Positions 3,339-27,620 of a DNA stretch of 33,246 bases are shown one piece after another (positions within the stretch are counted from its first letter, which is position 1; every line of letters starts with the position of its first letter). Origin of the DNA: a virus; the IMG/VR virus record IMGVR_UViG_3300037322_000061, positions 1 to 33,246 of that record. One strand, given 5' to 3'. The position numbers and the translations under genes are program-made. The notes under the pieces were generated by a model. It was not told the origin of the DNA, made no database searches, and saw nothing but the letters and a program-made list of their open reading frames with translations.

Positions 3339-3811
3339 CCAGCATTGACCGAATGAGCGTTGAGCGTCTGGCTGAATACATATCGCCCGACGTGCGGAGA
3401 GTGATGCTAGCACAAGCCGACCGCATTGAGGAACTGGAGGCGAAGGCGGTGGAGGCTTTGATGCTTGCCGACGGCGAGTTGGACCCGGACTCAACTGTCA
3501 AGGAATACTTGACAGTTCAAACCGAGGGCCCCCGCCAGGTGAACCTGCACCCCTGCCTTGAGCGTCAGGTAAAGCTGGTGGTCAAGGCAGGGTGTCTATG
3601 GGCCGTTTGTTGTCTGCAAGAAGCTAAACGGTCGTGTGTATGTTTATCTAAGCAAAGAAAACATCACACCAAACGATTTTGCCCAAGCTGCTGCGTTGTT
3701 CGCGGCGCTGGCAATGACTTTGCCGCCCAAGTGGCTATGGTTTGCGATTATGCCGAAGAGCGCGGCGACTGGCTGCTTGAACAACATCGCGACCGGGAGG
3801 CGACAACATGA
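3335..3811 (+). CDS. Hypothetical protein, probably frame-disrupted in its middle
   Basis: The open frame begins MTSIDRMSVERLAEYISPD with a heptad-like helix (ADRIEELEAKAVEALMLAD) and ends CDYAEERGDWLLEQHRDREA, both convincing. Between about 3592 and 3705 the frame reads an unlikely Cys-rich stretch (CLWAVCCLQEAKRSCVC). The adjacent frame there gives a natural-looking sequence (YGPFVVCKKLNGRVYVYLSK, then ENITPNDFAQAAALFAALA). This suggests a +1 insertion near the GGG at 3590-3592 and a compensating loss near 3705, either a mutation in the phage or assembly errors. No family is recognised. Confidence 0.45.
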   Translation: MTSIDRMSVERLAEYISPDVRRVMLAQADRIEELEAKAVEALMLADGELDPDSTVKEYLTVQTEGPRQVNLHPCLERQVKLVVKAGCLWAVCCLQEAKRSCVCLSKQRKHHTKRFCPSCCVVRGAGNDFAAQVAMVCDYAEERGDWLLEQHRDREATT

Positions 3812-4943: not shown

Positions 4944-5070
4944 TGGTCGCCCTTTCAATAGTATCTGCGCGGGATTGCGCCTCTTTGGCTGTCTTGCTGG
5001 ATCTGCCAGTCATATACGCCGCAAAGATGCCCAGCAAAGACACAACGCAGCCGACAATAAAGGCGGTCAC
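4855..5070 (-). CDS. Small membrane-anchored protein, candidate i-spanin
   Basis: It starts with GTG overlapping the holin stop as GTGA (5067-5070). The 71-aa product has one N-terminal transmembrane segment (TAFIVGCVVSLLGIFAAYM) followed by a charged helical tail (KTAKEAQSRADTIERATNAD, then DLEFLRRRGKRQR). Topology and position between holin and lipoprotein match an Rz-like inner-membrane spanin, although at 71 aa it is short for the family. Similar short proteins accompany endolysins in other alphaproteobacterial phages, by memory rather than search. Confidence 0.6.
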   Translation of the reverse strand: MTAFIVGCVVSLLGIFAAYMTGRSSKTAKEAQSRADTIERATNADTGNPDGSGDLEFLRRRGKRQRDDNGS

Positions 5071-5264
5071 GTTGCGCCGCCGCGCAGCTTCGCATAGCGG
5101 GACGTTGCGAACGCAATGCCAGCGGCAGCCAGGCCGCCGATCACGTCGATCAATGTATCAACATTGAGGGTTATAACGTGGGACGCGGGGTCATAGGTGC
5201 CGCCAAGCCATGCCGCGACAGGTACGGCGAAGATATAGACGGACATTCGGATTGCTAGAAACAT
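5067..5264 (-). CDS. Holin-like membrane protein (65 aa)
   Basis: There are two hydrophobic segments, residues about 5-20 (IRMSVYIFAVPVAAWLGG) and about 38-55 (LIDVIGGLAAAGIAFATS), joined by a polar turn, with a basic C terminus (YAKLRGGAT). Size, the two-TM topology and the position directly after the endolysin in the transcript fit a class II holin, which perforates the inner membrane to release or activate the endolysin. AAAGGA precedes the ATG at a 6-nt distance. Confidence 0.65.
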   Translation of the reverse strand: MFLAIRMSVYIFAVPVAAWLGGTYDPASHVITLNVDTLIDVIGGLAAAGIAFATSRYAKLRGGAT

Positions 5265-22913: not shown

Positions 22914-23996
22914 TCATAGCCTTGCCCTCAATTCTTCAAGCGTCAATTCCCGGCCATTGCCGTCTACCAAGTCGCGAAACTTGATCTTGCCATCGCGCCA
23001 GAGTTGCGCGCGTCCTACGCCCAACTTGTCGTTTTGCTCTGCTACGTCGCGCCGTGATAGCCAGCCCTCAAACGTCGTGTCGGCTGCTACCTGCCCATCC
23101 ATGCCTGCCCGCGTGGATGCTGGCACTTCGTCAATGTCGAACCCTAGCTCTCGGAAAGACTTGAGCACCGGGACCGACGTGCTTCGACATCCCCAGTGCA
23201 GATTTCCAGGACCGCCGCCCCATGGGATATCATGCTCAATCGGCTTGTGCGTATCAACTGTGTATGTCAGCCCGTCGCGGACGGCGCAAAGCACTGTGGT
23301 TCGTAAATCAATTGTTGATACCCACTGCAACGATTTGATGATGTCTTCGTTGCCCTCGTAAAGCGATTGCCGCGACTTCTGCGACACGGCCTGCGTTGCC
23401 GACCTCACAAGGCTTTCGGCATTGCGCCGGGAAATCTCCATAAACCCCTGAACGGGTGATCCGTTCTGCGTCCCGCCGCGAACAGCGCGGATTAATGAGG
23501 CGTTTGTCTGCCCCTCAGCAATGCCCAGCCGCATAGCGTCCGTAAAGCGTTGCAGCGTGTCGCCAGCCTGCCGGGATAGCCAGTCCGATACCGGCGCACC
23601 CTCGATCAGCACGCCGTCAACAATCGCCGCAAGTTGCCCGCGCGTGATTGACGTTGTGATAAAGTCAACTCCCAGCGCCTTGTTGATTGACGATCCCGCA
23701 AACGTGGTTTCAACGTCTGCCAGTTCACGCAGTTCACCGATCAGTCGTGTGCTTTCCCCGCGATAAGCTGCGCGAATAGTTTCCTTGACCTGGCTCAACA
23801 GCTTTTCCAGCCGCGCCGCTTGCCGAGATGGGGCCGCAATGCCCGTTGGGTCAATCTTGGCAAGCTGCGCCACGATGTCGCCCTCAAGTTCTTTGAGAAA
23901 CCGCGCTGCATCCCGCAACTGACTAGCAGTCAGCCGTTGCAGGTCCAGCGCGCGGCCCGTGATAGAGTCAAGGATTTCATCGTTTACGCTGGCCAT
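22914..23996 (-). CDS. Minor head protein (MuF / SPP1 gp7-like)
   Basis: The ATG at 23996 (MASVNDEILDSITGRALDLQ) is chosen because a separate small gene occupies the bases before it. The 360-aa protein contains the head-morphogenesis core at about 190-290 (RNAESLVRSATQAVSQKSRQ, then QWVSTIDLRTTVLCAVRDG, then NLHWGCRSTSVPV), with the conserved D-x-R-T-C-A-H/R and W-x-C-R-C/S pattern of the Mu gpF family. Such proteins bind portal and are packaged in small numbers. The long N terminus is helical. Confidence 0.88.
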   Translation of the reverse strand: MASVNDEILDSITGRALDLQRLTASQLRDAARFLKELEGDIVAQLAKIDPTGIAAPSRQAARLEKLLSQVKETIRAAYRGESTRLIGELRELADVETTFAGSSINKALGVDFITTSITRGQLAAIVDGVLIEGAPVSDWLSRQAGDTLQRFTDAMRLGIAEGQTNASLIRAVRGGTQNGSPVQGFMEISRRNAESLVRSATQAVSQKSRQSLYEGNEDIIKSLQWVSTIDLRTTVLCAVRDGLTYTVDTHKPIEHDIPWGGGPGNLHWGCRSTSVPVLKSFRELGFDIDEVPASTRAGMDGQVAADTTFEGWLSRRDVAEQNDKLGVGRAQLWRDGKIKFRDLVDGNGRELTLEELRARL

Positions 23997-24000
23997 TGGG

Positions 24001-24054
24001 TCACTTCTTTGGCTTGGGTTTACGCTTTGTCGGTGTCTTTGTGCCGTATGCCAT
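24001..24054 (-). CDS. 17-residue lysine/proline-rich peptide
   Basis: Between the portal stop and the MuF-like start a tiny frame reads MAYGTKTPTKRKPKPKK, with 8 of 17 residues basic. GGAG in the last portal codons lies about 7 nt upstream of its ATG. The ATG abuts the portal stop (TAAATG), and its TGA is 5 nt before the next gene start. Spacing this tight would be lost if the interval were not translated. It may bind DNA or an acidic head protein. It is too short for automatic gene callers. Confidence 0.6.
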   Translation of the reverse strand: MAYGTKTPTKRKPKPKK

Positions 24055-25464
24055 TTATGCCTCCAATCCAAGTGGGTTGCCTACAATCATCGGGGACGCC
24101 GACGCAATGCGGTCAGCCTCGTCTTGCGGGTTCAGGTCGCTGGCAACCATGCCGCGTCGTGCAAGCTCGCGCAGGAACGTTTCGCGGCTCATGTTGCCCG
24201 ACTGAACAGCCTGCAACAGAACCGCCATCTCTTGCGCAGACATCATGCCGGATGCGAATTCCTTGTTGACTGTCACGGTCGGCGTTACGTCATCGCGGCC
24301 AGCGTATTGCAGCATATAGATCATCGCCTGTTCTAGCGCGTCTTGCAGGGAATCAGCCGTCATAGATAGCTGCGACGTCTCTTTTTCGGCATCAAGCGCG
24401 GCCCCAGTGGCGCTTTCGGACGACACGCGAGCGACAGTCAGTTGCAGGCCCAGCGTTTCCATTTGAAATTCAAGGTCTTTAAGATCTTGCCGGCCGGCGT
24501 CAATCGCGCGACCCGAATGTTCAACCCACTTTAGGTCAGCCGCCGGGTCATTTGCCGTGGTCATCTGTCCAACGCTGATCGTGATTGGCTCGTCGTCTTG
24601 GCGGCCCGAACCGAACAGGATCGGCACCCGCGCGAAGTGCAGCACGTTGCGCTGGTCAGATTGAGACTGCCAATGCGCGATGTTGCAATCGGCCAAGTCG
24701 TCGAGCATAGGTTCGCCCGTGAAGAACCCGGTGCGGTTGGCATAAAACGGCACGAGCGTAATGTCATCCATGTCGCTGATAGTCGGCTCTGCGAAAAGCA
24801 CATATTCGCCATGGCCGCCTTCGCGCTTGCGATAAAGCCGGGTCATAACGCCGCCAGCTTCCATCCGGTCCAGCACGCGAACCTGGTCTATTTCGACGCT
24901 TTTGAATTCGTCCTTGGGATCTTGCTCAGTGACGGACTCAATCAGCCGCAGCTGCGCCAGAACTGTGACGTTGCTGACAAGCTCTGTGCGCCAGCCTAGC
25001 ACGTCCTCAACGCGAATGTGCGACAGGTACGGGCGCAGGCCCATAGACGCCACAGCGGCCCGCGTTACCTGCTCAGGCCGCGCCGGTGCGTCAACTAGGA
25101 TATAAGCAATGCCAGCAGACAAGCCGTCCTGAAACACGTCGCGCGCAAACGTGGATAAATCCCGTCCGGCAAGGTCAATATTCTTGGCCCATTCTGCAAT
25201 GTCGTCTGGCGTTTCCTCGGCAAGCTCAACTGGCTTGCGAAAGACCCGGCCAGTCATGTCGCGGATTGCTTTTTTGTAGCCGTTAAACAGCCACGACATA
25301 GCCAAGCGCTCGTCGTATGTCTCTTGCGATTCAGCCGTGAACTTTGGCAGGTAAGTTGTGCTTTTGCGGCGCATGCCCTGCGTGCCGCCCATCAAAGCGC
25401 GACCACGGGCGGAAGCTTCCACCATCTGTGCGACAGCTTTTGATCTTGCGGCGACTGCGGTCAT
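24055..25464 (-). CDS. Portal protein (DUF4055 family)
   Basis: The 469-aa product shows DUF4055 portal features: an N-terminal RGRALMGGTQGMRRKSTTYL segment, YDERLAMSWLFNGYKKAIRD, TGRVFRKPVEL, then ISDMDDITLVPFYANRTGF and a helical ESATGAALDAEKETSQL region before the C terminus. It forms the dodecameric DNA gate at the head vertex. The start overlaps the terL stop (ATGA, 25461-25464). The last codons supply the ribosome-binding site of the 17-aa peptide gene. Confidence 0.9.
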   Translation of the reverse strand: MTAVAARSKAVAQMVEASARGRALMGGTQGMRRKSTTYLPKFTAESQETYDERLAMSWLFNGYKKAIRDMTGRVFRKPVELAEETPDDIAEWAKNIDLAGRDLSTFARDVFQDGLSAGIAYILVDAPARPEQVTRAAVASMGLRPYLSHIRVEDVLGWRTELVSNVTVLAQLRLIESVTEQDPKDEFKSVEIDQVRVLDRMEAGGVMTRLYRKREGGHGEYVLFAEPTISDMDDITLVPFYANRTGFFTGEPMLDDLADCNIAHWQSQSDQRNVLHFARVPILFGSGRQDDEPITISVGQMTTANDPAADLKWVEHSGRAIDAGRQDLKDLEFQMETLGLQLTVARVSSESATGAALDAEKETSQLSMTADSLQDALEQAMIYMLQYAGRDDVTPTVTVNKEFASGMMSAQEMAVLLQAVQSGNMSRETFLRELARRGMVASDLNPQDEADRIASASPMIVGNPLGLEA

Positions 25465-27620
25465 AAACGTAAACTCCGAGATTCAAATGTGGGCTTCACG
25501 ACGGGCATTTCATACGCTAGCGGATATCCTGCTGCGTCACAGTTTGAAACAATGACGCCTCCCAGATCAAAGCACCCGTGTTCGGGAACCGTGATGCAGT
25601 AGACATCACACAGGTCTGATTCGGCTACTTGAGCAACTGCGACCGCAGTATTGATTGGGCTTGTACTTGTTGACGCTGAAGCCCGCCCCGCAATTCGCGC
25701 AATGCCTGATTTCATCATCAACACCAGAGCGCCTGCGGGCTGCAGAACTGCAATTGCGACTGCAGAAAACTGCAGTTTTGGTCTTGTTGCTTTTGAACCT
25801 ATCGCCGCAATTTGCACAAGTATGGTCTTTAGTTTTAGCATGCAGCGCTTCAGATGTCCGCTGATAGTGGGCCTTGTGCCAGTCAGCCCCAGCATCGCTT
25901 CCATGCCACCGTTTTGCCCCCTCAAGGGCTTCCAGTGGCATTGGCCGACCATGCCCAAGGTGGTGGAGCGACATATGCTCTGACGCAGATATAAGCTGAA
26001 GGTTCCCAGATGCATTGTTTGCCCTATCGTGGTCAACATGGTGAATATGCCACCCTTTGCCAACTGGGATAGGCCCGTTATGGTATTCCCAAACATCCCT
26101 GTGAAGCCGGTCTCCGTCCAATTGGAAATACCTGCCGCAAAGGTAGTATTTTCTTTGATTGAATTCCTGCTGGGTTTTGCTAATAATGACGGGCTGCATA
26201 GGTTATCTCCAACGATTAATGCGTCGGCTCTAACCCATCCATGTGTAGAAAGGATTTTGTGATCCGGCGTCACTCGGAAACTGTACCCGTTTGATAGCGT
26301 AACCGCAAGAGTCCTTTGCTGAATGCCCTTAACGCCGCCCAGTTTATACTGGACCGGCATTCCGTGCGACCCTGCGACAATACCGCTTTCAGGCAGGCAA
26401 TCAAACCTTGTCCAACGGCCATTTGCGAAAACCTTTGTGTCGCCAGAAAAACATTGATGGTCAAGGCCCGTCTTCTTATCAGGCTCGCCGTTATCGTCGT
26501 ATGCCTGCTGCTCAAGGCAACGGGCAGTTTCGGGGCAGGTATCGGGATTGACAAACACGCGCTTGTTTTGGAACGCCATGTTCACGGCTAGGATCCGGTC
26601 CTTAACGCGGGGGTTTGACGGCTTGGCGCGGATTGTAAAGCCTGCGCCGCGTAACAACCCGATGTCAGAGATTGATGCGCCCTTGCTGCTGGCGTTAGCG
26701 CCGCTGGCGTCGGGATAGATCGTAACGTGGTGCCCTGCCCAGCGGTCCTTGATCGTGTCAATCATCGCCGGGGTGTCTTGCCCGCCCTTGATTTCGTCAA
26801 CGCAGTGCCAATCGTTTTCGCGCAGGACGTAAGCGCAAGCGGCCATGTTGCCGACGTTAAAATCCATCCCCAGCTTGATAGGCTCGCCAGGTCGTAGCGT
26901 TTCGCGGCTGCGGTTTACTTCGCGGTCGTATGACGTGTAAACGCTGCCCGATGTTAAGTTGACAAATTCGCCATCCAAGTATGCGCTAATTAGTTCGTCG
27001 GGGTAGGTGTCCAAAAGCGATTGGATAAAATCAGGCGGCAAGTGCTTGTTGTCTTGGGTTCTAGCCCTTAGCAAACGCCTGCCTTCGCCTGCGTCTTTTA
27101 CAAAAATTCGGTGCATCGCTTTAAAGCCTTCCGGCGTTGATACGATGACCATTTGCCGAACATTGCCAGCCCGCAAGCGGCCCATTAGCTTTTCGAATGC
27201 TGAATATGCAAGGGCTGCCTTGGCCGTGTCAAATTCGTCCAAGATCACCCACGCGGCGTTTACGCCGATTAAGCGGTCGTAACGCTCCATGCTCTTGCAG
27301 ATGATGCGTGTCTGCTTGCCGGAAACGGTGCAGTAGAAAATAACCTCTGACTTATTAAAGTGAAACGGGATACCAAATTCTTTGAGCGCGGCTTCAACTT
27401 CCGGAATCAGGATTTGCGTCAATAACGGAAAGTTGGGCTCAGTTATAATCCCGTCAGACCCAGGGTTCAACAACGCCAAGGTGCACGCCTTGCGAGCAAC
27501 TGCGTATGTCTTTCCGCCTCCGTAGCCGCTCACAAGCCCAAGGATGCGCGTTGTGGTGTCCTCGATCAGGTCAAACTGGTGTGGCAGCAGGGCTATTGTT
27601 CTGGTGCTTGCAGTTGTCAA
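25461..27620 (-). CDS. terL: Terminase large subunit interrupted by an intein
   Basis: The 719-aa precursor holds a 415-aa terminase and a 304-aa intein. The ATPase motifs are Walker A GYGGGKT (residues 32-38), Walker B WVILDEFD (124-131) and the coupling motif STPEG (161-165). The RNase H-like nuclease uses GMDFNVG (Asp252), YPDASG (Asp304) and the last motif GLDHQ/CDAAGY, which the intein splits between Gln389 and Cys694. Only after splicing is the nuclease site whole. TerL packages and cuts the concatemeric DNA at the portal. It starts at ATG 27620 downstream of terS and is coupled to portal. Confidence 0.93.
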   Translation of the reverse strand: MTTASTRTIALLPHQFDLIEDTTTRILGLVSGYGGGKTYAVARKACTLALLNPGSDGIITEPNFPLLTQILIPEVEAALKEFGIPFHFNKSEVIFYCTVSGKQTRIICKSMERYDRLIGVNAAWVILDEFDTAKAALAYSAFEKLMGRLRAGNVRQMVIVSTPEGFKAMHRIFVKDAGEGRRLLRARTQDNKHLPPDFIQSLLDTYPDELISAYLDGEFVNLTSGSVYTSYDREVNRSRETLRPGEPIKLGMDFNVGNMAACAYVLRENDWHCVDEIKGGQDTPAMIDTIKDRWAGHHVTIYPDASGANASSKGASISDIGLLRGAGFTIRAKPSNPRVKDRILAVNMAFQNKRVFVNPDTCPETARCLEQQAYDDNGEPDKKTGLDHQCFSGDTKVFANGRWTRFDCLPESGIVAGSHGMPVQYKLGGVKGIQQRTLAVTLSNGYSFRVTPDHKILSTHGWVRADALIVGDNLCSPSLLAKPSRNSIKENTTFAAGISNWTETGFTGMFGNTITGLSQLAKGGIFTMLTTIGQTMHLGTFSLYLRQSICRSTTLGMVGQCHWKPLRGQNGGMEAMLGLTGTRPTISGHLKRCMLKLKTILVQIAAIGSKATRPKLQFSAVAIAVLQPAGALVLMMKSGIARIAGRASASTSTSPINTAVAVAQVAESDLCDVYCITVPEHGCFDLGGVIVSNCDAAGYPLAYEMPVVKPTFESRSLRL
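25542..26453 (-). mobile_element. Intein in terL (304 residues)
   Basis: It starts at Cys390 (CFSGDTKVFANGRW, block A). Block B is TPDHKILSTHGW with the T-x-x-H at 451-454. The N-terminal Hint half ends at VRADALIVGD (about 472). Block F is VYCITVPEHGCF and block G is GVIVSN, followed by the +1 Cys of the C-extein. The penultimate residue is Ser instead of the usual His. The canonical endonuclease slot (residues 474-671) contains no recognisable domain in this frame; instead an HNH gene is encoded there in another frame. Splicing competence is inferred from motifs. Confidence 0.9.
25606..26199 (-). CDS. HNH endonuclease nested out of frame inside the intein
   Basis: The 197-aa protein is read in a different frame from terL. 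Its own GGAG lies 7 nt before ATG 26199, and a TAA two codons upstream rules out read-in. The HNH core spans about residues 30-80 (DRLHRDVWEYHNGPIPVGKG, WHIHHVDHDRANN, GNLQLIS, EHMSLHH). Two C-x2-C...C-x3-C zinc knuckles follow (C128/C131/C146/C150 and C167/C170/C185/C189). It ends exactly where intein block F begins. It should cut intein-less terL to drive intein homing; target specificity is inferred. Confidence 0.88.
   Translation of the reverse strand: MQPVIISKTQQEFNQRKYYLCGRYFQLDGDRLHRDVWEYHNGPIPVGKGWHIHHVDHDRANNASGNLQLISASEHMSLHHLGHGRPMPLEALEGAKRWHGSDAGADWHKAHYQRTSEALHAKTKDHTCANCGDRFKSNKTKTAVFCSRNCSSAARRRSGVDDEIRHCANCGAGFSVNKYKPNQYCGRSCSSSRIRPV

Follow-up and report, generated by a model that had tools for sequence, protein, structure and literature searches.

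The microvirus phiX174 J protein and the adenovirus core peptide mu are very small, strongly basic proteins that act on packaged nucleic acid, and both are proven virion components. Among phages, a catalogue of unannotated small genes was reportedly assembled by Fremin, Bhatt and Kyrpides in 2022, and the gene described here resembles its entries in being short and missed by standard annotation. That catalogue (Fremin, Bhatt and Kyrpides 2022) is cited among the references of PMC11323111. A literature search at the level of listings returned no paper on a comparable peptide from between the portal and MuF genes. Here we describe a 17-codon micro-gene, very probably real, at this junction of a virus record of 33,246 bases, which is referred to as a whole as the window.

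The head genes of the window lie on the minus strand in the order terminase, portal, micro-gene, MuF-like gene, scaffold-like gene and capsid, terminase, portal and MuF being named by profile matches, capsid and scaffold from gene order and by inference. The features of the portal-MuF junction are as follows.

22914..23996, minus strand: MuF-like head morphogenesis gene, 360 aa (phrog_241 head morphogenesis, E = 8e-116).
24001..24054, minus strand: micro-gene of 17 codons plus TGA, predicted product MAYGTKTPTKRKPKPKK; identified by translation, conserved in relatives, with synonymous-only change in codons 10-17.
24055..25464, minus strand: portal gene, 469 aa (phrog_145 portal, E = 7.5e-116; Pfam DUF4055, E = 5.4e-40).
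24060..24064, minus strand: Shine-Dalgarno GGAGG of the micro-gene, inside the last portal codons, spacing 5, -9.3 kcal/mol.

The match of the MuF-like gene to Pfam Phage_Mu_F (E = 1.6e-5, 26.1 bits) is below the 29.6 cut-off. The terminase large subunit gene (719 aa, 25461-27620, minus strand), which matches Terminase_6N and 6C, appears to hold an intein, the Intein_splicing match over residues 436-693 scoring 30.7 bits, below its 35.8 cut-off; within the intein region a second frame (25606-26199, minus strand), overlapping that of the terminase, has an HNH_3 endonuclease domain (197 aa, E = 1.3e-13). The ORF list of the window also holds frames with Ala/Tyr-rich repeats (AAYAAYAAANVAAD...) at 1032-2023 on the plus strand.

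On the minus strand, 24001-24090 translates to ...NPLGLEA, a stop, MAYGTKTPTKRKPKPKK and a second stop, the micro-gene ATG (24054-24052) following immediately on the portal TAA (24057-24055). The first-pass annotation had described a 54-nt frame abutting the portal stop and preceded by a strong Shine-Dalgarno, which is exact, GGAGG lying five bases before the ATG; it had put the next gene 5 nt away, whereas the gap measured from the micro-gene TGA (24003-24001) to the MuF-like ATG (23996-23994) is 4 nt. It had also called the product extremely basic, and MAYGTKTPTKRKPKPKK indeed has K or R at 7 of its 17 residues and no acidic residue (no D or E). The Shine-Dalgarno pairing of -9.3 kcal/mol is matched by 4 of the 528 ATGs on that strand, while the Shine-Dalgarno of the MuF-like gene itself is weak (-2.1, about average). 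Exceptional as it is, the micro-gene signal is one site and cannot by itself settle the choice between a micro-gene and chance.

A chance frame without a product would be expected at some frequency. In 40 dinucleotide shuffles of the window, basic frames (ATG start, 10-30 aa, K/R content of 40% or more) with a moderate Shine-Dalgarno occurred 0.7 times on average (maximum 3), compared with 2 in the window, an excess of composition and Shine-Dalgarno that is not significant in the window alone; the evidence from one genome is thus only suggestive, and support comes from relatives. Off-frame basic decoys also exist. The frames MPKGKGYGKKGGKKR (L028), MPKKKGYPSSKGGKKR (L037) and MPKPYKKKGGKKR (L044), between the capsid and the next head gene, resembled relocated copies and were rejected: those of L037 and L044 overlap a conserved short protein in another frame (MR[IL]PT.EIVV.GRRKIVNADDP..., by eye from ORF lists) and were for this reason treated as off-frame artefacts, as was that of L028 by inference. 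In the window, the gap between capsid and next head gene contained no frame resembling these decoys. When 97 loci (586 kb) were scanned openly for short basic frames (9-25 aa, ATG start, no acidic residue, strong Shine-Dalgarno), 30 of the 46 matches belonged to the micro-gene family. What makes a chance frame very improbable is that position, residues, Shine-Dalgarno and synonymous-only drift are all kept in relatives whose portals are only 52-60% identical.

A portal search of viral contigs yielded 48 loci, with the frame present in near-identical ones; in relatives at 56-75% portal identity, MuF mostly overlaps or abuts the portal and leaves no space for a micro-gene. A MuF-based search yielded 62 loci and revealed that free-standing copies are common among more distant relatives. 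The census took in 109 loci, of which 83 rows showed both the portal end and the MuF start, and dropping 11 duplicates by contig name left 72 distinct contigs. The micro-gene occupies the portal-MuF slot in 33 of these 72: it is found in 33 of the 44 contigs with a MuF at least 67% identical to that of the window, and in none of the 28 with a MuF less than 65% identical. Thirty carriers have a free-standing copy with ATG, one has a free-standing copy with ATA (L083), and two have a fused form (L007 and L014). The eight annotated phages with portals 35-40% identical have no micro-gene, and a search of genome_contigs with the MuF alignment returned 170 pattern stretches and no confirmed relative.

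The first-pass annotation had proposed, as a check, to look in the same slot of related genomes for a similar frame free of stops and indels. Such a frame is present in 33 of the 44 contigs at or above 67% MuF identity, with the qualifications that L083 has ATA for ATG and that in two contigs the frame forms the end of a longer ORF of 73 aa; the remaining 11 lack it (L032, L078, L088, L089, L090, L093, L097, L102, L106, L120 and L121). L078 and L102 have no micro-gene although their sister contigs retain it. Loss in 11 of 44 near relatives indicates that the micro-gene is dispensable or replaceable, and is the strongest evidence against an essential role. In a MuF tree of 53 rows (quick method, SH-aLRT only), the window falls in a clade of 46 rows; the deepest split of this clade has carriers on each side, and absences are nested among carriers. 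The simplest reading of this history is old presence followed by several losses; gain by exchange is possible.

Variation among the copies is unevenly distributed. The 17-aa versions follow the pattern M[ANRK]Y[GP][TK]K[TP][PT][TVK]KRKPKPKK, and an 11-aa version, MAYMKKRKPKK, occurs in the clade whose MuF is about 80% identical. Residues vary in the N-terminal half, while Tyr3 and the C-terminal block are constant, Tyr3 being present in all classes though the detection motif covered the C-terminus only. Across six distinct sequences recovered by the portal and MuF searches, the last eight codons (10-17) show 8 synonymous and 0 amino-acid changes, for copies that were detected through the C-terminal motif, so that amino-acid variants or diverged copies there could be missed. 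Ignoring phylogeny, the neutral probability of 8 out of 8 synonymous changes is about 2e-6 to 5e-5 at a transition bias of 1 to 8. Changes are likewise synonymous-only in the 11-aa class (2 changes) and in a 13-aa class (5 changes), both collected by peptide-specific patterns. In motif-negative MuF loci, a scan of the portal-MuF interval for small basic frames of any kind gave none that was convincing, and together with the open 97-locus scan this suggests that few copies were missed. The pattern of substitution points to purifying selection on the C-terminal residues of the predicted peptide. The claim that standard annotation misses a gene here is thereby well supported, both by its presence in 33 of 44 contigs at a MuF identity of at least 67% and by the synonymous drift.

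We then considered whether the frame stands apart from its neighbours. Every one of the 31 free-standing copies has its own Shine-Dalgarno of -5.6 kcal/mol or stronger, in varied surrounding sequence, a strength reached by 66 of the 528 ATGs on the window strand. Inserted genes separate the micro-gene from the portal in 6 of the 31 (L081, L084, L085, L099, L104 and L117), and in 11 of the 31 further genes intervene before MuF, which is then 188-2177 nt away; L099 and L104 have insertions on both sides and keep the Shine-Dalgarno. Retention despite insertions argues against a pure spacer, a portal tail or a ribosome site for MuF. The junction itself is an insertion hotspot, with DNA methylases, collagen-like GxDGxDG repeat proteins and a moron family of 57-73 aa (L060, L065, L066, L095 and L103). 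An N-terminal extension of MuF was also considered, as the window has an open, TTG-started MuF frame running through the micro-gene, and was rejected: this extension is not conserved, since in L094 the micro-gene stop lies in the MuF frame and spacing varies elsewhere.

The same arrangements bear on the possibility that the frame matters mainly as a route by which ribosomes reach the MuF start, 4 nt downstream, with the peptide itself incidental. Coupling of this kind would fit the window and the majority of the 82% group, where a strong micro-gene Shine-Dalgarno is combined with a weak one for MuF (-1.5 to -2.5) and gaps of 3-4 nt, and it would also fit L078, where MuF directly follows the portal and has a strong Shine-Dalgarno (-8.4). 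It requires no fixed residues, yet codons 10-17 change only synonymously; the peptide is kept in the 11 copies with intervening genes before MuF; and L094 has a strong Shine-Dalgarno at both starts. We therefore consider it improbable that coupling explains the frame. A regulatory leader, in which the nascent KPKPKK chain would retard ribosomes close to the stop and thereby adjust expression of the following gene, appears decidedly improbable. Cationic or Pro-rich nascent chains can slow ribosomes, the Lys/Pro-rich C-terminus adjoins the stop, and the frame sits between genes of a polycistron; the genes downstream nonetheless differ (MuF, a collagen-like gene, a small membrane-like gene and others), and the distance to MuF ranges upward from -4 nt (L117).

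In L007 and L014 the slot holds a single 73-aa ORF ending in the micro-frame, with 17 of 17 and 15 of 17 identical residues, respectively, and L014 has no free start for the micro-frame. In L060, where the portal end is not visible, the frame comes after a gene for a DNA methylase (PF01555), and the moron gene's 3' end is still attached. These forms suggested that the micro-frame could be the 3' end that a 168-bp deletion between AATGGC repeats left of a 73-aa gene, a reading that arose from the portal search, where only near-identical relatives had the frame, and that was favoured both by the shared 15-17 residues and by the methyltransferase gene joined to the micro-frame's 3' end in L060. 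It was reversed by the free-standing copies of the MuF search. Both the sister clade and the MuF-68% clade contain such copies, and in L065 and L066, which hold the closest homologues of the 57-aa front part, the protein stops without a micro-frame tail; together these findings indicate that the free form is older overall. As an account of the whole family the remnant reading is largely refuted, and we rate it as extremely unlikely. Fusion followed by deletion inside the window's own clade is possible, and, as fused and free forms are mixed there, both fusion and re-separation may have happened.

The small protein family to which the front part relates (YADEVHVTEHxTHSxLLGPDGxxLxY) was observed at L007:4602-4823, L014:1018-1239, L065:2501-2680, L066:2501-2704 and L067:2483-2698, four of these five copies lying in the portal-MuF slot and that of L067 being one remote copy; where scanned, there was no confident Pfam or PHROGs match. 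The 73-aa fused forms P0001 and P0002 had no Pfam or PHROGs match at E up to 1, the L065 copy gave only phrog_32247 (E = 0.37) in PHROGs, and P0001 and P0003 had no match in phages. Against plasmids the 57-73 aa family gave two matches at E 6-7, judged to be chance, and in genome_contigs no relative.

Taken together, what can be read from the genomes is a free-standing frame with its own Shine-Dalgarno that persists while its neighbours change and is occasionally lost. We give an even chance to the fuller reading, in which the late head operon contains a genuine micro-gene and its cationic peptide would serve the head or its assembly as a small factor, most likely by binding nucleic acid. The strong Shine-Dalgarno, here overlapping the portal end, would drive translation of a free cationic peptide of 11-17 residues that begins M-x-Y and ends in a KRKPK(PK)K block. 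This peptide may neutralise or condense packaged DNA, or may help portal, MuF and scaffold to assemble around DNA; that it acts in head assembly or on DNA is plausible, at even chances or slightly below. The first-pass suggestion of an internal DNA-binding or head peptide likewise remains plausible, charge and place among head genes being its only basis. A second, compatible role in this genome is proposed from the weak MuF Shine-Dalgarno (-2.1) and the 4-nt gap: ribosomes finishing at the TGA could re-initiate 4 nt further on, at MuF, as they might in other genomes whose micro-gene abuts MuF.

Similar peptides were found beyond the family. A DNA pattern for KRKPKPKK followed by a stop matched 52 stretches, and outside the micro-gene family 15 contigs carry MGYGTKRKPKPKK, a 13-aa frame of T7-like phage contigs with the Shine-Dalgarno AAAGGAG or similar. 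In L144 this frame lies between the holin/scaffold and major capsid genes, in the order connector (phrog_449), head assembly (phrog_1052), holin (phrog_3427), micro-gene, small gene and major head protein (phrog_267). It shares with the window family the M-x-Y-G-T-K start, the KRKPKPKK end, a strong Shine-Dalgarno and a head gene cluster, and the likeness exceeds what the search imposed, since the start was absent from the search pattern; it differs in its 13-aa length, in occupying a holin-capsid rather than a portal-MuF slot, and in an unrelated genome backbone. The likeness of MGYGTKRKPKPKK to the window family may reflect homology or convergence, which 13 residues are too few to separate. 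In the cultured HTVC041P and in MedDCM-OCT-S30-C28 the 13-aa frame is absent, with other small basic genes in its place.

A second pattern, combining a Shine-Dalgarno, M-x-Y-G-x-K and a KK end, matched 96 stretches; the best 80 of these 96 gave 69 new loci, 28 of which have a frame of at most 25 aa. Among the matches listed are other Lys-rich M-x-Y-G-x-K micro-frames in viral contigs, for example MAYGPKKKTKKVKKPVKKGMKY and MGYGKKGKGGKKK. These are basic and share the start motif and Shine-Dalgarno with the window family, as imposed by the search, but have no KRKPKPKK block and range from 8 to 22 aa, so that the resemblance is one of motif only. Of 20 neighbour proteins scanned, some were scaffold-like, capsid, terminase, connector or virion proteins and others were tail, lysis or unknown proteins. 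We regard this set as a lead and not as a family. By eye, an unannotated Lys-rich frame was seen between the capsid and tail tubular genes of the cultured phage P-SCSP2 (L258, around 5030-5115), which begins MYHSTK and thus does not match the start motif; CRP-113 (L261), also a cultured phage, has an unannotated small Lys-rich frame, MPKGKGTYGKKVGRPPKKK, among its head genes (3625-3684).

If the peptide is made, phage head operons hold genes of 11-17 codons that are routinely discarded in gene calling and in virion proteomics. A basic peptide that is conserved, free-standing and encoded beside the portal would be a minimal candidate organiser of DNA or assembly at the portal vertex, and recurrence of the motif in other phages would help to locate further genes of this kind. 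We hold as tentative, and on balance rather unlikely, the broader idea that unrelated tailed phages share ultra-short, Lys/Pro-rich head-cluster peptides of M-x-Y-(G)-x-K type as a dsDNA-phage counterpart of phiX174 J and adenovirus mu, a family that would have escaped notice because the length cut-offs of annotation and proteomics lie above the size of its members. Although J and mu come from other virus groups, and the micro-gene product, a predicted peptide of 11-17 aa, is likened to them by description only, all are alike in their tiny size and strong basic charge.
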